Assembly (NCBI RefSeq): GCF_000422685.1
Contig: NZ_AUGN01000001.1
Location: forward strand, 186,001-250,000
DNA length: 64,000 nt
Source of the DNA: Flavobacterium gelidilacus DSM 15343
GTDB taxonomy: Bacteria; Bacteroidota; Bacteroidia; Flavobacteriales; Flavobacteriaceae
Reading direction: 5' to 3'
The notes below the pieces were generated by a model. The model was not told the DNA's origin, ran no database searches, and saw only the letters and a list, made by a program, of their open reading frames with translations. Made by a program: the position numbers and the translations under genes. Below are positions 27,897-37,338 of this stretch, in pieces. Numbering within the stretch: the first letter of the stretch is position 1; each line of letters opens with the position of its first letter.

Positions 27897-27934
27897 ACTA
27901 CGCAAAATAATTGCGTACTTAAGTAAAACCTTTG
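27897..27934 (+). promoter_or_regulatory. Palindromic operator and promoter of rtcB
   Basis: ACTACGCAA (27897-27905), 5 bp, TTGCGTACT (27911-27919): 7 central pairs are perfect. AACCTTTG (27927-27934) is a TAnnTTTG-like -7 box. The same arrangement recurs at 34945-34983 before the tRNA mimic and slipin unit (22 of 24 bases equal in the palindrome). Confidence 0.65.
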
Positions 27935-28015
27935 CTTCATCAAATAGAAAGTAGGGATGATGTTTCCATAAAAACCATCAGACTTGAGAAATTAAAAAGT
28001 ACTAAATTTACAATT

Positions 28016-29437
28016 ATGAACACACCCATCAACGGAAACGATTTAAAAGACTTAGGATATGCAGAAGGAAGTTTAATTGGTATTGCCTTAAAATGCAACA
28101 GAAAACGCACTGGTTTGACCAAAGAACAAATGCTAGAAAAGTATAAAGATGCGTTAGCTAACCCAGAAAGTTATTTAGAAGAGGCTTTGTTTGGCACTTT
28201 AGCCCAAGCCGTTATTGACAAAGCCAATGAAAAACCAGAAGACTTTATAGCTTTAAACCAAAATCCACCTGCTTATGCTTTGTATGGGGAAAATCATATT
28301 GAAGAAGGAGCCAGAAAACAAATGGATATCGCGATGCAATTACCCGTTACGGTGGCAGGTGCTTTAATGCCTGACGCTCATCAAGGCTATGGATTGCCAA
28401 TTGGTGGTGTTTTAGCCACTAAAAATGCCATAATTCCTTATGGTGTTGGTGTGGATATTGGTTGTCGAATGGCTTTGTCAGTGTATGATATTCCAGAATT
28501 GTTTTATTATGAAAACGAAGATAAGTTCAAACGCGAATTGTTAGCGCATTCTAAATTTGGTGCCGGACACGGTTTTCATGGTCAATATAAAACAGATCAT
28601 GCGGTTTTGGAACGAAAAGAGTTTAACAACCATTCGTTCATTAAAAATTTGAAAGACAAAGCTTGGTCGCAATTGGGTTCTTCAGGTGGTGGAAATCACT
28701 TTGTGGAATTCGGAATCCTTGAATTTGCGCAAGATGATAAAGTATTAAACATTCCCAAAGGAAAATACGTTGCCTTGTTAACGCATTCGGGTTCTAGAGG
28801 TTTTGGAGCTACTGTAGCCGGACATTATACAAAAATGGCTAAAGAAGTATGTAATTTACCAGAAATTGCCAGAAACTTAGCTTATTTGGATTTAGAAAGC
28901 GAATTAGGACAAGAATATTGGATTGCCATGAACTTAGCCGGAGATTACGCGTCTGCTTGTCACGAAGTGATTCACGATAAAATGGAAAAAGCCTTAGGAG
29001 CAACCGTTTTAGCTAAAGTAGAAAACCACCATAACTTTGCTTGGAAAGAGCACTATAATGGGGAAGAAGTAATTGTGCACAGAAAAGGAGCTACACCAGC
29101 CGGAAAAGGAGTCATGGGAATCATACCAGGAAGTATGACCGCACCTGGATTTTTAGTCCGTGGAAAAGGAGAGGAGCAAGCCATAAACTCAGCTTCACAC
29201 GGAGCAGGACGACAAATGAGTAGAACCAAAGCCATTAAAAACATTAGTAAAAACGAGATGAAAAGCATCTTAAAAGACCATAACGTGACCTTAATTGGTG
29301 CCGGTTTAGATGAAGCTCCTATGGCTTACAAAGATATTCACCAAGTAATGGCTGCTCAAACCGATTTGGTGGATGTTGTAGCCAAATTTACACCCAAAAT
29401 GGTACGAATGGCTGATGATGGAAGTAGAGAGGATTAA
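28016..29437 (+). CDS. rtcB: RtcB RNA-splicing ligase
   Basis: A 473-residue RtcB, the GTP- and Mn-dependent ligase that joins RNA 2',3'-cyclic-phosphate or 3'-phosphate ends to 5'-OH ends, in tRNA repair or splicing. Signature segments are MPDAHQGYGLPIGGVLATKNA, GVGVDIGCRMAL (metal Asp and Cys), GSSGGGNHFVEFG, LLTHSGSRGFG, VENHHNFAWKE, RKGATPAGKG, GSMTAPGFLVRG and INSASHGAGRQMSR, whose His is the one guanylylated in characterised RtcB. I start at ATG 28016 because the open frame upstream runs through the promoter -7 box. No archease or RtcA gene is adjacent. The shared operator links it to the tRNA-mimic/slipin unit 7 kb downstream. Confidence 0.93.
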   Translation: MNTPINGNDLKDLGYAEGSLIGIALKCNRKRTGLTKEQMLEKYKDALANPESYLEEALFGTLAQAVIDKANEKPEDFIALNQNPPAYALYGENHIEEGARKQMDIAMQLPVTVAGALMPDAHQGYGLPIGGVLATKNAIIPYGVGVDIGCRMALSVYDIPELFYYENEDKFKRELLAHSKFGAGHGFHGQYKTDHAVLERKEFNNHSFIKNLKDKAWSQLGSSGGGNHFVEFGILEFAQDDKVLNIPKGKYVALLTHSGSRGFGATVAGHYTKMAKEVCNLPEIARNLAYLDLESELGQEYWIAMNLAGDYASACHEVIHDKMEKALGATVLAKVENHHNFAWKEHYNGEEVIVHRKGATPAGKGVMGIIPGSMTAPGFLVRGKGEEQAINSASHGAGRQMSRTKAIKNISKNEMKSILKDHNVTLIGAGLDEAPMAYKDIHQVMAAQTDLVDVVAKFTPKMVRMADDGSRED

Positions 29438-29678: not shown

Positions 29679-30683
29679 ATGGCTATTGATTTTAGTAGTT
29701 TAATTACAATTAATAAAAAATGGGTTGATAAAGAGTTTAATCATCACTATACTGAGAAAGTGAATGATAAACTTAAAGTTAGATTATTCTCAATTAAGCC
29801 ATCAGGAACTACGATAAATTCTATTTCGTTGGCAAAATCTTTATTGGATATATTACCATATTATTTTAAGTCAAAATCTGAAATTGATAGACTAGTAAGA
29901 AGAGAGGTTTCTAGAACTATTAACGATTATACTTCTGCAACTGAAATTGACCAAAAAGAGGAAGTTGCTAAAATAGTCTATAATAGAACTTACAGAGATG
30001 CAAAAAGTTTTTTTAAAAAAAAGAGTTCTGATTCCAAAAGTGGGAAATACGGTGAGTTACTTCTATTCGGACTTGTAGAATCAGTTTTCGATTGTAAAAT
30101 GATTGCTCATAAAATAACTAATCTTACTAATTATCACGATGAAATCAAAGGAGGTGATGGGATTTTTATGGGAAATTATAAATTGCCAAATGGAAATATT
30201 GAAATTGCTTATCTAATTGGAGAATCAAAAGTTTGGAAAGATTATTCCGGAGCTAAAAAAGATGCTTTGGAATCTATAAATAGATTTTACGATTCAAAAA
30301 TTCAAGCTGATTTTAAAACATTAGAATTTTTTATTGCTCAGAAAGATATTGAAAAAGTGGTTGATAATGAAACCGATATTGATGAATTATACGATAGACT
30401 TGATCAAAAATCCGAATTATTCAAAAGCCAAATAGCGGTTCATCCAATATTGATTATGTACGAAACAAAGAATTACAATAGGTTGATGAAAAAGGCTCTA
30501 AATAATACTGAATTAACTAATTTAATTGATAAAAATATCAAATCAAAGTTGGATAAAACATTAGAAAGTATTGCTTTAAAAGTAAAAGAATTTCCTGAAC
30601 TAGAAAAAGTGTTTTTAGATTTTATTTTAATTCCAACAAATAGTGTAGCTGATTTTAATGACACAATGGATAATTTGATATGA
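29679..30683 (+). CDS. hamA: Hachiman defence protein HamA (DUF1837)
   Basis: A 334-residue protein of the DUF1837/HamA group, the nuclease effector of the Hachiman anti-phage system. The core SGKYGELLLFGLVESVFDC (Glu 126), DEIKGGDGIFMG (Asp 160) and AYLIGESKVWKDYSGAKKDALESI (Glu 182, Lys 184 as E-x-K) gives the E...D...E-x-K order of a PD-(D/E)xK nuclease. The N-terminal 110 residues are helical and would hold the nuclease to its helicase partner. The stop overlaps the start of the helicase gene (ATGA, 4 bp), as expected for a stoichiometric pair. The base composition is more AT-rich than rtcB upstream, in keeping with gain by transfer. Family identity is good; activity here is inferred. Confidence 0.85.
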   Translation: MAIDFSSLITINKKWVDKEFNHHYTEKVNDKLKVRLFSIKPSGTTINSISLAKSLLDILPYYFKSKSEIDRLVRREVSRTINDYTSATEIDQKEEVAKIVYNRTYRDAKSFFKKKSSDSKSGKYGELLLFGLVESVFDCKMIAHKITNLTNYHDEIKGGDGIFMGNYKLPNGNIEIAYLIGESKVWKDYSGAKKDALESINRFYDSKIQADFKTLEFFIAQKDIEKVVDNETDIDELYDRLDQKSELFKSQIAVHPILIMYETKNYNRLMKKALNNTELTNLIDKNIKSKLDKTLESIALKVKEFPELEKVFLDFILIPTNSVADFNDTMDNLI

Positions 30684-33346
30684 TTGAAGATAATTACACA
30701 CTTTCCTTTCAGGCTTTCGAGCATAAGATATTAAATAAAGTAATTTTTGATTATACTTTAAATTTAATGTCTAATGTTTTTGATGCTATTAATTCAATAA
30801 AAATTGAAGAAGATGAATTAAAAAAAGCTATTTGGTTAGTTTCTGTTTTATGTAATAGTAATGATCAAAGTCACAAAAGAAAGGCTCAATTATTTGCTTC
30901 TTTACTTTATTTGAATAATAAAGATAATATCGAAATTCTTAAAATATGTTATATATTATTTTCTAGATTAGGTAACCTTACAGCAACTAAATTTTTAGAG
31001 AAATTATATGTAACAAAAGAAGATAATCCTGTAAAATTAAAAACTAAATATGATTTTGGAGAGTTATTGAGTCATGAATTATTGTTTGAAAGAGAAAAAA
31101 AAATCATCTCATCATTTAATAATTCATTTTTAATTACTGACTTTCAAAAAGAGTTATGGCAAGGTTTGAATAATATTTCAGAAATCGCAATTTCAGCTCC
31201 AACTTCTTCTGGAAAATCATTTATAATAAAACAATATTTAATTAATGAATTTTCAATTAAGAAAAATTTTAAAGTTTTATATATAGTCCCATCTAGAGCT
31301 CTGATTAATCAAGTTAGTGAAGATTTTAAAACTGAATTAGATTTTAATGTACATATAAAAACCTCTTTCGTTAAAGAAAATGAAATTTTCGAAAAAGAAA
31401 TATACATATTAACACCAGAAAGGTGTATTAAGCTACTGAACAGTAAGATAAAAATCGAATTTGTTTTTATTGACGAGATACAAGGAATAGAAGATGTTTA
31501 TGGAAGGGGCCTAACCTTTGAATACGTATTTAATGAAATATCCTTAAAATTCCCATTATCTAAATTTGTGTCAGCTGGTCCTAATATAGATAATCCAGAA
31601 AAAACATTTAAAGATATTTTTGAAAGAGATTGTTCCACAATTCAAACAAAATTATCTCCTGTATTTCAATTAAAAGTAACTTTAAAAAATAATGAAAAAA
31701 GTAGATTTGATATAGAGTTCCAAACAGAAAAAGGTAAATATCAAAAATTTGTTCAAGATTTTAATTATAATTTCAGTAAAAATCAAAATAAAGGAGATAC
31801 AATTGCTCAATTAGTAAATTATATTGCTCCTAATGATTTCAATATAGTTTTTGTTCATAATGGATATTATGCACAAAAATGGGCTATTAAATATGCTAAT
31901 TTAAAAGAGGATGATATTGAAATTGATGATGAAATAAAGGAATTAATTGATTTTTTAAAAGAAGATATCCATAAAAAATATTATTTAATTGAATGTTTAA
32001 AAAAGAAAATTGCTTATCATCATGGAACACTACCTGATATAGTAAGAAAAGAAATAGAAGAATTGTATATTAATGAAAAGTTATCAACTGTTTATTGCAC
32101 TTCAACATTATTAGAGGGTGTAAATTTACCTGCTAATAATCTTTTTACTTTTGAACCCAAAAAAAGAGATACACCATTAACAAAATTTGAATTTGGTAAC
32201 TTGATAGGAAGAGCAGGTAGATTAAAATCTTCACTTTATGGAACAGTTTATTATATTGAGGACTATAAAGACAAGCAAAAAGCAAGTGATTATTATGATG
32301 CTGAATATGATAAAGAAATTGAGGTTTTCTCATCTAACGCTTTGAATTCTTTAAATATAAATGATTTAAATATATCTATTAAATCTATTGAAAAAGGAGA
32401 TAAAACAGAAACCTTAAAAGCACAACAAATATCTGTTTTTTTAAGACATAAGTTTTTAAAAGGAGAAATATATGCTTTGAAATATTTGAAAAGCAAAAAT
32501 TTTACTGATAATGAAATAAATCTTGCAATTGGTTATTTAAGGAATAACTTAAATGAAATTGTAATTCCAAAAAAAGTATTAATGAATAATCCATCTATTG
32601 ATCCAATTTTACAAAATGAATTATATAAATCAATTAAAGGTAATGATATTAGAGATTGGGTAATAAATAAAAATAGTAATTTTAATAAATTTTTGAGTTT
32701 TGAAAAAATAGAATCTATTCCTGTTTATGATAGACCATTTTATTGGCAATTAGTAAATTTAGTAACAAGACTAAATGAAATATTTAATATTTTTGAAGAA
32801 GGTTTTAAAAAACATAATCAAAAATGGTTAACCTCAAATTCAATTAGTTTGCAGGCAAAAAAGTGGCTAGGTGGTGCACCTATAGGTCAAATTATAAGAC
32901 AAAATATAAATTATTTATCTGGATTAGATGGTATTTATAAAATAGACTCGGAAAACCTAGAAGATATAAATATGGTTATTAATAATACAATAAGATATAA
33001 TTCTTCTATAACAACTCACTTGTTACCTAAATACATAAAAGTTTTAACTGATATACTTGAAGAAATTTTATCAGATCAGCAAAAAGAAGACTACAAGCTT
33101 ACAATTAGTTTACCAACAATGTTAGAGTTAGGAACTCAAGAACCAGTAATTATACAATTGATTTCTTCAGGGATAACTAGAAGTGTTGCGATTCAATTAT
33201 TTGATATATATGTAAATAGCACATCCAAAGATTATAGAGAAAAAAATGATGTTTTAAAATGGCTATCAAATCAAAACGAATTAAAAGGATTAAAACCTAT
33301 TTACAATAGATATTTAAGACGAATTAAAGTCTTGAAAAGTATTTAA
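30680..33346 (+). CDS. hamB: Hachiman defence helicase HamB
   Basis: An 888-residue superfamily-2 helicase. Walker A is ISAPTSSGKS (Lys 179), motif Ia LYIVPSRALINQV, Walker B FVFIDEIQGI (residues 263-270), and the C-terminal RecA half has VYCTSTLLEGVNLPANNLF (about 470-490) and FGNLIGRAGR (about 505-515), the Ski2-like motif VI. The N-terminal 150 residues are helical; the C-terminal 370 residues are of unknown fold. In characterised Hachiman systems HamB translocates on damaged or unusual DNA and releases HamA. It is translated by coupling to hamA (ATGA). A lipoprotein gene follows after 9 bp. Confidence 0.85.
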   Translation: MIEDNYTLSFQAFEHKILNKVIFDYTLNLMSNVFDAINSIKIEEDELKKAIWLVSVLCNSNDQSHKRKAQLFASLLYLNNKDNIEILKICYILFSRLGNLTATKFLEKLYVTKEDNPVKLKTKYDFGELLSHELLFEREKKIISSFNNSFLITDFQKELWQGLNNISEIAISAPTSSGKSFIIKQYLINEFSIKKNFKVLYIVPSRALINQVSEDFKTELDFNVHIKTSFVKENEIFEKEIYILTPERCIKLLNSKIKIEFVFIDEIQGIEDVYGRGLTFEYVFNEISLKFPLSKFVSAGPNIDNPEKTFKDIFERDCSTIQTKLSPVFQLKVTLKNNEKSRFDIEFQTEKGKYQKFVQDFNYNFSKNQNKGDTIAQLVNYIAPNDFNIVFVHNGYYAQKWAIKYANLKEDDIEIDDEIKELIDFLKEDIHKKYYLIECLKKKIAYHHGTLPDIVRKEIEELYINEKLSTVYCTSTLLEGVNLPANNLFTFEPKKRDTPLTKFEFGNLIGRAGRLKSSLYGTVYYIEDYKDKQKASDYYDAEYDKEIEVFSSNALNSLNINDLNISIKSIEKGDKTETLKAQQISVFLRHKFLKGEIYALKYLKSKNFTDNEINLAIGYLRNNLNEIVIPKKVLMNNPSIDPILQNELYKSIKGNDIRDWVINKNSNFNKFLSFEKIESIPVYDRPFYWQLVNLVTRLNEIFNIFEEGFKKHNQKWLTSNSISLQAKKWLGGAPIGQIIRQNINYLSGLDGIYKIDSENLEDINMVINNTIRYNSSITTHLLPKYIKVLTDILEEILSDQQKEDYKLTISLPTMLELGTQEPVIIQLISSGITRSVAIQLFDIYVNSTSKDYREKNDVLKWLSNQNELKGLKPIYNRYLRRIKVLKSI

Positions 33347-34983: not shown

Positions 34984-35183
34984 TAAAGCGAAAGCAACTA
35001 AGTTCTTTAAGTAATTAAAAACCTCATTTTGTTGTAAAGACAATTTTGAGTAAAAAATATCAAGCAAGTCTTGTTGGGTGTTTCTGTATAGCACTATTGT
35101 AGTATTCGTTTCGCATTGCGTATGATGTTTTTACTATGCAACTTGATTTGAAGGTTTCGGTAGTTTTCCATAAAACGGCCCTA

Positions 35184-35252
35184 TCTATTTGTCGTGGGTT
35201 CGAGTCCCACTTCTGACTTTGTCAGAATAGCTCAGTCTGGTAGAGCAATAGA
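35184..35252 (+). ncRNA. Circularly permuted tRNA mimic, module 1 (Y-RNA-like)
   Basis: A 69-base cloverleaf in permuted order. The root helix is TCTATT (35184-35189) with AATAGA (35247-35252), the anticodon-stem position. Then come TGTC, a T-arm (GTGGG TTCGAGT CCCAC, 35194-35210), the acceptor 3' strand TTCTGAC (35211-35217), a loop of TTT, the acceptor 5' strand GTCAGAA (35221-35227, perfect 7 bp), TA, and a D-arm (GCTC AGTCTGGTA GAGC, 35230-35246) with the elbow GG. All four helices are perfect. No anticodon and no CCA end exist, so it cannot be an ordinary tRNA. This is the topology described for bacterial YrlA Y RNAs, which mimic tRNA. Start and end of the real transcript are not known. 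Confidence 0.75.
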
Positions 35253-35333
35253 AAATCGTAGGTTCGAATCCTACACACGTTTCGTTAATGTGTTTGACAG
35301 TGGTTGTCTCCAACAGACTAAAAATCTGTTTTC
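35253..35333 (+). ncRNA. tRNA-mimic module 2 and anticodon-arm-like hairpin
   Basis: A second permuted unit directly behind the first. It has a T-arm (GTAGG TTCGAAT CCTAC, 35258-35274), an acceptor-like hairpin (ACACGTT at 35275-35281 with AATGTGT at 35287-35293; 7 bp with one G-T), then TT and a D-arm-like hairpin (GACA GTGGT TGTC, 35296-35308). After it comes a 5-bp stem with 7-base loop (ACAGA CTAAAAA TCTGT, 35313-35329) shaped like an anticodon arm. A root helix GAAAA/TTTTC is possible but would compete with module 1 for two bases. It is less regular than module 1. Confidence 0.55.
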
Positions 35334-35383
35334 AGAGTAGCGTTCGCTCTTTAAATTTAATGTACCATGGAAAAAGACTATTT

Positions 35384-35439
35384 GTCTTGATCGGCAATAC
35401 AAATTTAATAGTGTTCTCGTATTGCACTCACGACAAGAC
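35384..35439 (+). ncRNA. Extended stem-loop in the same leader
   Basis: GTCTTG (35384) pairs with CAAGAC (35434-35439) and GCAATAC (35394-35400) with GTATTGC (35419-35425), separated by internal loops, with an 18-base apical loop. It is probably part of the same RNA as the tRNA mimics. From 35440 to 35655 I see only short weak stems and no coding frame. Confidence 0.45.
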
Positions 35440-35655
35440 CTAAAAATCGGCTCTGTTTTTTAAACCGTTGGTTGCCTTTAGGGTTTGCTTGTTTTTAAAC
35501 TTAGGTTTTGTACAAAAAATAACTATAAACGCTTTCATCGCTTTGCTAAACTGGCTTTTTTCCGTCCTTGAAGGAGGATTGAGACGAATAGGCTTTTTTA
35601 TTTAAAAAGAAATACTAACTAACGCTGCAAAGTTCAGCTATAATACCTAGAAATA

Positions 35656-36753
35656 ATGATTAAAAGAATTACAATTAAGGCCTACCAAGTAGGTTTGGTG
35701 TTTGAAAACAGAAAATTGGTAACTGTTTTAGAAGAAGGAAAATTTTGGATTTTGGGAAACAAAGAAGTCATGATTTATGAAATGAAGTCCTCTTTTGTAG
35801 CTCCAATAGAATTAAACATTTTATTGCAAAATGAAAAGTTAGCTTCTTTGTTGGAAGTTGTTGAAATTGCCGATAATGAAATTGCATTATACTACGTAAA
35901 TGGTATTTTTAAAGAGGTTTTAACCACAGGAAGATTTGCTTTTTGGAAAGGTTATGTGGAAAATACGTTCATTAAAGCAGATACAAGTAAGGTTGCTATT
36001 ACGGAAGAAATTGCAGTAAATATGTTGGAAAACCAAAATGTTAGAGCTTATATTAGAAAATTTTCTGTAGCGAATTTTGAAAAAGGTTTGTTGTTTGTAA
36101 ATGGTGCTTTTGTAAAAGAATTAGAAGCGGGTATTTACTACTTTTGGAACAACACTATTGCTGTGGAAGTTAAAAATGCTGATACAAGAAAACAACAAAT
36201 GGAAATTTCTGGTCAAGAATTATTGACTAAAGACAAAGCTGCTTTGCGAATTAACTTCTTTGCCAGTTACAAAGTTATCGATGTAGCGAAAGCTTTGGTA
36301 AGCAATAAGGATTTTGAAAAACAATTGTATGTAACGATGCAGTTGGCCTTGAGAGCTTTTGTGAGTACTTTTACTTTAGACGAATTATTGTCTAAAAAAG
36401 ATACTATTGCCGAAGTAATTTTGGAAGAAACTAAAAGCAAAATGGTTGATTTAGGTTTGGAAGTATTTGCGGTGGGAATTAGAGATATTATCTTGCCAGG
36501 AGATATGAAAGAAATCATGAATCAGGTTTTGGTAGCTGAGAAAAAAGCTCAAGCGAATAGTATCATGAGAAGAGAAGAAACGGCTGCGACCAGAAGTTTA
36601 TTGAACACAGCCAAATTGATGGAAGAAAACGAAATGTTGTGGAAATTGAAAGAAATGGAATATGTGGAAAAAATTGCCGATAAAATTGGTGAAATCACCA
36701 TTTCTGGAAGCGGTAACATCATCAGTCAATTGAAAGAAATTTTCGTTAAATAA
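35656..36753 (+). CDS. SPFH/slipin-like protein
   Basis: A 365-residue slipin-family (Band-7/SPFH) protein. The SPFH core is about residues 165-300 (VEVKNADTRKQQMEISGQELLTKDKAALRINFFASYKV... ALRAFVSTFTLDELLSKKDTIAEVILEETKSKMVDLGLEVFAVGIRDIILP), followed by the helical tail with repeated Ala/Glu (AEKKAQANSIMRREETAATRSLLNTAKLMEENE). Unlike typical slipins it has no N-terminal membrane helix. Instead three repeats of about 20 residues occur at 13-31, 77-97 and 144-164 (G/A-L-x-F/Y-x-N-G... L-x-x-G-x-F/Y-x-x-W). It lies behind the tRNA-mimic RNA, and the shared operator ties it to rtcB. A scaffold role in RNA repair is inference. Confidence 0.85.
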   Translation: MIKRITIKAYQVGLVFENRKLVTVLEEGKFWILGNKEVMIYEMKSSFVAPIELNILLQNEKLASLLEVVEIADNEIALYYVNGIFKEVLTTGRFAFWKGYVENTFIKADTSKVAITEEIAVNMLENQNVRAYIRKFSVANFEKGLLFVNGAFVKELEAGIYYFWNNTIAVEVKNADTRKQQMEISGQELLTKDKAALRINFFASYKVIDVAKALVSNKDFEKQLYVTMQLALRAFVSTFTLDELLSKKDTIAEVILEETKSKMVDLGLEVFAVGIRDIILPGDMKEIMNQVLVAEKKAQANSIMRREETAATRSLLNTAKLMEENEMLWKLKEMEYVEKIADKIGEITISGSGNIISQLKEIFVK

Positions 36754-36846: not shown

Positions 36847-37338
36847 TTGAATATATTTTTGATTATTTTCTTTATTTCAATTTATTGTTTGATAATGTAT
36901 TATCAAATTCAATTTATATACCAAAGATATTTTAAAAGTTATAAAAACGAAATTATAGCATTCCTTCAAAATAAAGATCTAGAATTATTAGAGATAGCTT
37001 ATCCAACTGAAAATGATTGGAAGAATAGTCCATTTGAAAAAAATAAAGGACTATTTAAATTCTATCAAATAGAAATAGGAAATTTTCCATTTGTTGTTTC
37101 TAAAGACTTTCTAATTGTTATTGCTTTTAAGGGTACTAGTAAAAAAAAATTTTGGCTTGAAATACGAGCAAGTCCTTTTCAAAAACCTAAGTTTCTATTT
37201 AAGGAAAACGGTTTTGTTGATACTTTAAAAATTAGTTTTAAAAATAACTATATAGAAGTTTTAGACAAGTGCCCAGCTTGTGGGTTTAAATTAAAAACTT
37301 CAGATTTATTTTGTCCTGATTGTGAATTGAAATTTTAA
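36847..37338 (+). CDS. Membrane-anchored protein with C-terminal zinc ribbon
   Basis: A 163-residue protein with one N-terminal membrane helix (IFLIIFFISIYCLIMYYQIQFIY), a cytoplasmic alpha/beta middle, and a C-terminal ribbon CPACGFKL...LFCPDCELKF with four cysteines spaced as in zinc ribbons. The start is uncertain: TTG at 36847 keeps the membrane helix, while the first ATG (at about 36895) would lose most of it. No family is recognised. It is read in the same direction as slipin but behind its terminator. Confidence 0.55.
   Translation: MNIFLIIFFISIYCLIMYYQIQFIYQRYFKSYKNEIIAFLQNKDLELLEIAYPTENDWKNSPFEKNKGLFKFYQIEIGNFPFVVSKDFLIVIAFKGTSKKKFWLEIRASPFQKPKFLFKENGFVDTLKISFKNNYIEVLDKCPACGFKLKTSDLFCPDCELKF

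Follow-up and report, generated by a model that had tools for sequence, protein, structure and literature searches.

What is encoded between the XRE gene and the slipin gene of Flavobacterium gelidilacus DSM 15343? The question arose from a stretch of 64,000 nt (NZ_AUGN01000001.1, 186,001 to 250,000, forward strand), referred to here as the window, in which the original prediction placed a circularly permuted tRNA mimic resembling a Y RNA at 35184-35333. Comparison with relatives indicates that this stretch is only the middle part of a much longer feature (Table 1), as judged by conservation and by the start of a match to R2, a model of the 5′ domain without any tRNA part. Conservation spans from a start resembling ATCAA(A/G)CAAGTC, about 125 nt before the first mimic, to a U-run before slipin, and in 27 sequences whose end was called by pattern the RNA measures 519-565 nt. 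Judged from sequence comparison, an RNA of about 541 nt with a permuted structure is almost certainly real.

The first of its two tRNA mimics, unit 1, is closed by a root helix (TCTAT 35184-35188 with ATAGA 35248-35252). Inside it lie a T-arm (GTGGG-TTCGAGT-CCCAC, 35194-35210), an acceptor hairpin (TTCTGAC 35211-35217 with GTCAGAA 35221-35227, loop TTT) and a D-arm at 35230-35246 (GCTC 35230-35233 with GAGC 35243-35246) with GG in its loop. All four predicted helices are present and covary. In most Flavobacterium, unit 1 is opened at the anticodon stem and the two strands of that stem make up the root helix, an arrangement shared with YrlA. Unit 2 comprises a T-arm (35258-35274), an acceptor (35275-35281 with 35287-35293) and a short D-arm (35296-35308, pairing 35296-35298 with 35306-35308). 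Its own anticodon arm is reduced in the window, and most of the genus shows both this arm and the D part in reduced form. This second unit, predicted as a looser one of the same order, does exist and covaries, but it is not merely a looser copy, since it opens at the variable loop, unlike unit 1. The proposed shape of an anticodon-nicked tRNA likewise fits unit 1, but neither unit 2 nor unit 1 in those species where the latter has an anticodon arm of its own. The extra hairpin that follows has the loop CTAAAAA in the window and often CTCAAAA in relatives, and may be an anticodon arm or a T-loop-like arm. As a single sequence the fold only weakly beats shuffles (z -1.95, with 8 of 200 shuffles equally good); the fold alone therefore proves little and covariation decides. 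ARAGORN called no tRNA within the window.

TABLE 1. Features of the RNA and its island, in window positions.
Feature	Position	Strand	Basis or remark
RtcB RNA ligase gene	27932..29437	+	PF01139, E 2.1e-82; upstream part of island
HamA (PF08878) and DEAD-box helicase genes, Hachiman-like defence pair	29679-33346		between RtcB and the RNA
Whole structured RNA, about 541 nt	35059..35599	+	ends estimated from conservation and U-run 35594-35599; start also by model R2
5′ domain, conserved, with hairpin H0; no tRNA-like part	35059..35180	+	model R2, own genome 122.6 bits
Unit 1, permuted tRNA mimic, opening at anticodon stem	35184..35252	+	sequence, Rfam, covariation
Unit 2, permuted tRNA mimic, opening at variable loop	35258..35308	+	sequence, covariation, unit matcher
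Extra hairpin, 5-bp stem, 7-nt loop	35313..35329	+	
Candidate H-type pseudoknot	35334..35362	+	whole-RNA alignment helices 15 and 16
3′ domain; A-rich strand pairs long-range with terminal U-run, closing the domain	35366..35599	+	helices 17-28
Slipin (SPFH/Band 7) gene, constant downstream partner	35656..36753	+	PF01145, E 8.7e-25

The core of the RNA was aligned in 36 relatives (alignment A1), from 37 cores found by pattern in 43 loci; the pattern missed L052, L056-L059 and L063, and L062 was omitted for an extra hairpin. Across 39 pairs 96.0% of cells were paired, and 25 of the pairs were changed on both sides. Doubly changed cells numbered 175, against 49.1 (sd 7.0) after shuffling, with none of 500 shuffles as high and at most 24 when partners were slid. 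Compensatory changes, whose absence the original prediction took as counting against it, are thus present. Each acceptor stem had all six of its pairs changed on both sides, with 90.7% and 86.6% of cells paired. In an ordinary tandem of tRNAs the acceptor 5′ strand of unit 1 would instead pair with the acceptor 3′ strand of unit 2. This pairing reached 45.4%; shuffles averaged 44.8%, and 206 of the 500 equalled or exceeded the observed value. The covariation score of this pairing, 0.182 against 0.148, was reached by 38 of 500. With ordinary acceptor pairing at chance while the permuted acceptors covary at every pair, the ordinary tandem reading was rejected. The predicted order of T-arm, acceptor 3′, acceptor 5′ and D-arm holds, and degraded ordinary tRNA genes fail as an alternative. 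In the RNA region 142 of 180 T-arms lay inside permuted units; in the remainder of these loci the count was 28 of 449. On reading, most of those 28 looked like chance pairs of neighbouring tRNAs or chance matches outside tRNAs, but two, downstream in L170, appear genuine.

Covariation was found to extend over the whole RNA. In an alignment of 29 relatives (A3), 126 pairs were selected beforehand as RNAalifold pairs at least 80% paired in at least 20 rows, with H0 and the pseudoknot set by hand; the figure of 95.5% of cells paired is therefore favoured by selection. Changes on both sides were found in 65 of the 126 pairs. Doubly changed cells amounted to 388, against 124 (sd 9) after shuffling and at most 90 in slid versions. 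Among these preselected pairs, helices 17-28 of the 3′ domain had 86-97% of their cells paired. The candidate pseudoknot would join AGAG 35334-35337 with CTCT 35347-35350 and CGTT 35341-35344 with AATG 35359-35362. Its helices 15 and 16 were paired in 82.8% and 93.1% of cells across the 29 relatives, and two pairs of the first helix form in only 20 and 18 of the rows. L022, with runs of N, was left out of the whole-RNA alignments and the ends of L011 and L012 were trimmed by eye, while alignment A4 holds 26 of the 29 sequences, the near-duplicates L009, L012 and L021 being omitted.

The link to slipin that had been proposed from the window proved to be the most constant feature of the RNA's surroundings. 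By BLASTN, 46 of 299 genomes of the genus matched, own genome counted, and all of the 30 loci of 3 kb that were read had two T-arm motifs and a same-strand downstream slipin gene. R1, a model of the core, scored at least 75 bits in 53 of the 299 genomes, every time beside a same-strand slipin gene. Conversely, a slipin profile found the protein in 75 of the 299, and the RNA adjoins it in 73. These comprise 53 strong matches, 15 weaker adjacent R1 matches credited by position only, and five loci credited on reading; among the loci read, L193 has only the 5′ motif and a T-arm, with no unit by the matcher. Of the other two genomes, G023 is split by a contig end, and in G038 slipin is only a fragment. 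Elsewhere in the family, slipin accompanied every one of the 25 R1 matches of at least 64.7 bits that were fetched from other genera, but none of the four lower-scoring ones fetched.

An independent test chose loci in named genomes by the slipin protein alone and took the best 80 of 326, from Flavobacterium, Chryseobacterium, Epilithonimonas, Cruoricaptor, Ferruginibacter, Chitinophagales, Chryseolinea and others. R1 matched just upstream of slipin in 79 of these 80, and the remaining locus, L124, has 67 nt of upstream DNA. F. soli DSM 19725 and F. hibernum DSM 12611 are among the carriers. Nine of the 79 matches were weak, at 43.9-63.5 bits (L130, L152, L160, L167, L174, L175, L183, L187 and L190), and R2 confirmed all of them except L187 and L190. 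R2 itself was found in 75 of the best 80 of 326 loci, with a single match in each and no other in the 984 kb; it missed L124, which is without upstream DNA, and L181, L187, L188 and L190.

Across a sample of the phylum R2 matched 13 of 345 genomes. All fetched loci from the phylum searches had slipin, for R1 (10 of 10, L101-L110) as for R2 (13 of 13, L200-L212), and the layout was kept in L107 and L108, two loci read from another family of the class. The RNA thus occurs in several families of Bacteroidia. Not every R1 match could be taken as a member. Weak matches include ordinary tandem tRNA pairs, as read in four loci (L097-L100), so that the R1 tallies of 266/299, 223/299 and 194/345 are inflated, and membership was therefore judged by score, by slipin adjacency or by the tRNA-free R2. 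A phage origin was also considered and set aside, since a search of viral contigs found neither slipin nor the 5′ motif.

Some individual loci stand apart. Two RNA-slipin pairs occur in one genome (G046, contigs C204 and C244). L175, a contig labelled Limnohabitans, bears a Flavobacterium-like locus and is probably a misbinned metagenome contig. Paired R1 matches of the unit 1 type (model about 4-67) in other Bacteroidota, at G809:C1 886980-887521 and G749:C1 381725-382117, are possibly ordinary Y RNAs. In Chryseobacterium luquanense (L170, 10838-12322), three single-unit R1 matches lie about 5 kb downstream of slipin; two have clean sealed permuted units, and they are perhaps independent Y-RNA-like RNAs.

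Among relatives the units vary in how much of a tRNA they retain. Of 188 units, 154 were examined for anticodon arms, and 58 of these have a hairpin of 5 bp with a 7-nt loop, its letters left free, directly after the D-arm; 96 have none. U33 is present in 56 of the 58 hairpins and a purine at 37 in 55, while one hairpin (first unit of L178) looks like a chance match. The anticodons vary, UUU being the commonest and UAG, GUU, AGG and GUC also frequent. A full D-arm with such an anticodon arm was found in unit 2 of L061, L062, Flavobacterium cheniae and the like, and other genera (L073, L074 and others), and the matcher assigned both arms to unit 1 in L116, L120, L128, L130, L136, L160, L162, L167 and L175. 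L087 and L092 have a longer-looking tRNA-like part, possibly with a third unit.

Acceptor stems of 5, 6 and 7 bp were found in 65, 63 and 60 of the 188 units, respectively. With a matcher that tries the shortest loop first, and that found no unit in L124, L129 and L181, acceptor loops were of at most 4 nt in 94 units and at most 7 nt in 177; 37 are GNRA loops and four contain CCA. From their sequence the units look like end-sealed mimics that are unlikely to be charged, as an RNA with no free acceptor end should not be aminoacylated.

The genes around the RNA often include tRNA arrays and RNA-repair genes. Neighbour families were defined by clustering, with one Pfam-checked representative each, and tRNA counts were taken from the 74 loci with at least 4 kb of upstream sequence among the best 80 of 326 slipin loci. 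At least two tRNA genes lie upstream in 48 of these 74. All 263 upstream tRNAs are on the strand of the RNA, and only two tRNAs lie downstream. In regions of 20 kb, at least two tRNAs were found in 13 of 20. The arrays are dominated by Asp, Asn, Pro(tgg), Leu(tag), His, Phe, Arg(acg), Tyr, Lys and Gln, and no Gly or Val tRNA occurs among the tRNAs of the 74 loci. Colicin E5 targets the tRNAs for Asp, Asn, His and Tyr, colicin D those for Arg, and PrrC that for Lys. Besides RtcB, the recurrent neighbours by Pfam are an RLIG1-type ligase, a T4 Rnl2-type ligase, RlaP, cREC, an RNase_T exonuclease, a metallophosphatase and WYL. In the best 80 of 326 loci, at least one of RtcB, RLIG1, Rnl2, RlaP and cREC is present in 47, which bears out the suggested tie to RtcB as far as an RNA-repair neighbourhood is concerned; RtcB itself, however, is in the flank of only 11 of the 80 by clustering, or 13 by BLASTP to the RtcB of the window. 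Neither a tRNA array nor any of the five repair genes was found in the flank of 12 of the 74 loci. The island of the window is reduced to RtcB, HamA with a DEAD-box helicase (Hachiman-like), a small protein, the XRE gene, the RNA and slipin. The XRE gene, which had been thought part of the arrangement, is a local neighbour: upstream genes are not conserved among relatives, and XRE adjacency was dropped as a feature of the RNA. Directly after slipin, a gene at 36847-37338 encodes a zinc-ribbon protein (Pfam match below threshold).

In the window the likeness to YrlA lies in one module. At Rfam gathering scores nothing in the window matched. A permissive scan gave YrlA (RF02553) at 35186-35252 with 48.7 bits (E 7.8e-10, model 23-87 of 114), together with a weak tRNA match at 35228-35274 (26.8 bits, gathering 29) and one further chance match. 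Model positions 23-87 are the tRNA-like part of YrlA, and the alignment of unit 1 keeps all its pairs; unit 1 is accordingly a YrlA-like permuted tRNA mimic, as foreseen. The rest of the model is unmatched in the window and in eight of ten loci scanned. In every locus scanned the score stayed below the gathering score of 69, the best of ten loci reaching 49.0. The slipin-linked RNA of L002, L003 and L196 does match the full model (1-114) below threshold, so that the Ro-binding part, unmatched in the window, may be kept in some relatives. As predicted, a search for TROVE found no Ro60 in the genome of F. gelidilacus, which is one of 41 genomes without a match among 50 that bear the RNA. The other nine carry Ro60 on the same strand at a distance of 3-32 kb; it precedes the RNA in eight of them and follows it in one. 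L197 and L198 have separate full-length YrlA-like matches near the Ro60 gene, while their slipin-linked RNA matches 23-89 only. Flavo-1 RNA (RF01705) was found at or above its gathering score in L196 (3749-3819) and L198 (3095-3181), and both islands carry Ro60. Given its length of about 541 nt, its scores below gathering and the lack of Ro60 in 41 of 50 genomes, the RNA is not classed as a Y RNA, the original prediction of a Y-RNA-like RNA being supported in part.

No family of Rfam 15 covers the RNA in the scans made of the window and the relatives' loci, and open-access literature searches found no description of it, although it may have been mentioned elsewhere. Since it departs in tested features from YrlA, from GOLLD/ROOL, and from permuted and ordinary tRNA genes, it appears, on these comparisons, to be a large RNA of a new class, one that contains a YrlA-like module. 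As for its function, it can tentatively be proposed, with rather less than even confidence, that the RNA serves an RNA-repair system as a tRNA decoy, sensor or scaffold and acts with slipin. It would expose the tRNA elbow, joined in many species by what appear to be intact anticodon arms with varied anticodons; anticodon-loop nucleases or repair enzymes would bind it instead of damaged tRNA, or as a signal of such damage. The tRNA array would replace lost tRNAs, ligases would mend cut ones, and the RNA would work with slipin or control it, partly in cis. Confidence in this function is slightly lowered by the full-length YrlA matches in three relatives and by the 96 of 154 units without an anticodon arm. 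It is also conceivable, though rather doubtful, that the tandem acceptor-sealed permuted tRNAs are nuclease bait: cutting, with mending by RtcB or other ligases, would report an attack and switch on slipin and the repair island, and the bait anticodons would follow the nucleases of each lineage. As the anticodon arm of unit 2 is reduced in the window, a bait role there would rest on the elbow or the extra hairpin.

Several other explanations were weighed. The folded RNA might be a cis-acting leader of slipin that controls read-through and senses the state of tRNA by its tRNA-like parts, with no role in trans. This is doubtful but deserves notice, as slipin is the constant neighbour. In 11 of 29 loci no more than 57 nt separate the U-run from the slipin start, a space hardly sufficient for a promoter. 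In the other 18, however, the two are 106-379 nt apart; the RNA also greatly exceeds ordinary leaders in size and has a terminal U-run of its own. A leader role and a decoy or sensor role are not mutually exclusive. Membership among self-assembling ornate RNAs such as GOLLD or ROOL, with the mimics as docking modules by which tRNAs or other cargo are held, is unlikely: the RNA shares size, complexity and closeness to tRNA islands with those described in the sections of PMC12286853 drawn on here, but it has no Rfam match to either and is linked to slipin, and the viral contigs searched yielded neither slipin nor the 5′ motif. A Y RNA of the Ro60 type, a scaffold tethering a Ro-like protein to a nuclease, would account for the YrlA match of unit 1, the three full-model matches and the nearby Ro60 of nine genomes; it is quite improbable in view of the length, of the 41 genomes without TROVE and of the two loci with other full-length YrlA-like RNAs by Ro60.

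The arm order also recalls the permuted tRNA genes of some algae and one archaeon, whose transcripts mature into functional tRNAs. Units that in some species are nearly complete and have an anticodon arm, RtcB in some islands and the precedent of Thermofilum, in which a permuted tRNA has a 1-nt spacer (PMC3978253, in the part consulted), are in keeping with such genes. Stems of 5-7 bp, loops of at most 4 nt in half of the units and CCA in only four make this explanation very unlikely, as do the lack of an anticodon loop in unit 1 of Flavobacterium and the position of the units inside a larger covarying RNA. A seven-pair acceptor with a removable spacer giving a chargeable 3′ end is not what was found, and only a few units could qualify. 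Remains of an ordinary tandem tRNA array would explain why tRNA arrays lie just upstream in many relatives, why ARAGORN calls parts of the RNA tRNA in L120, L128, L136, L151, L160, L167 and L169, and why the Rfam tRNA model exceeds its gathering score in L005, L073, L074, L087, L092, L107 and L108. The chance-level ordinary pairing, the covarying permuted acceptors, the concentration of permuted units in the RNA region and a conserved 5′ domain without any tRNA part leave this last explanation with next to no credibility.

If the reading as a tRNA decoy, sensor or scaffold acting with slipin is correct, poorly understood bacterial slipins would be tied to tRNA damage, and mimic, spare tRNAs and ligases together would offer a testable system for how bacteria survive tRNA-cutting enzymes. 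The RNA itself would add a class to the few large structured RNAs known in bacteria and would show a Y-RNA-like tRNA mimic working mostly without Ro60.

Among known systems, YrlA shares with the slipin-linked RNA a T-arm, acceptor hairpin and D-arm in permuted order, closed by a stem; the latter differs in its length, its two units, the adjoining slipin and the usual lack of Ro60. A role as competitive inhibitor towards an anticodon nuclease has been proposed for the tRNA-like domain of YrlA, while Salmonella YrlA itself was uncut by the nuclease studied (PMC7790460, in the sections drawn on here). GOLLD and ROOL are likewise large, elaborate and near tRNA islands (PMC12286853, same sections), whereas the present RNA contains tRNA mimics, adjoins slipin and was not found in viral contigs; neither family matched in the Rfam scans of the window and the relatives' loci. 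Circularly permuted tRNA genes were known from algae and one archaeon only, according to the part of a 2014 review consulted (PMC3978253). In those of algae and Thermofilum the 3′ half also precedes the 5′ half and the acceptor strands are paired, but the slipin-linked RNA has short sealed acceptor loops, stems of variable length and a larger host RNA. A further parallel is found in Anabaena, where a single repressor, TrcR, acts on a tRNA operon, rtcB and a slipin gene, and translational stress lifts the repression (PMC10272220, in the sections available). That regulon brings tRNA array, RtcB and slipin together as the islands of Bacteroidia do; its genes, however, are dispersed and cyanobacterial, and those sections do not mention an RNA with permuted tRNAs.
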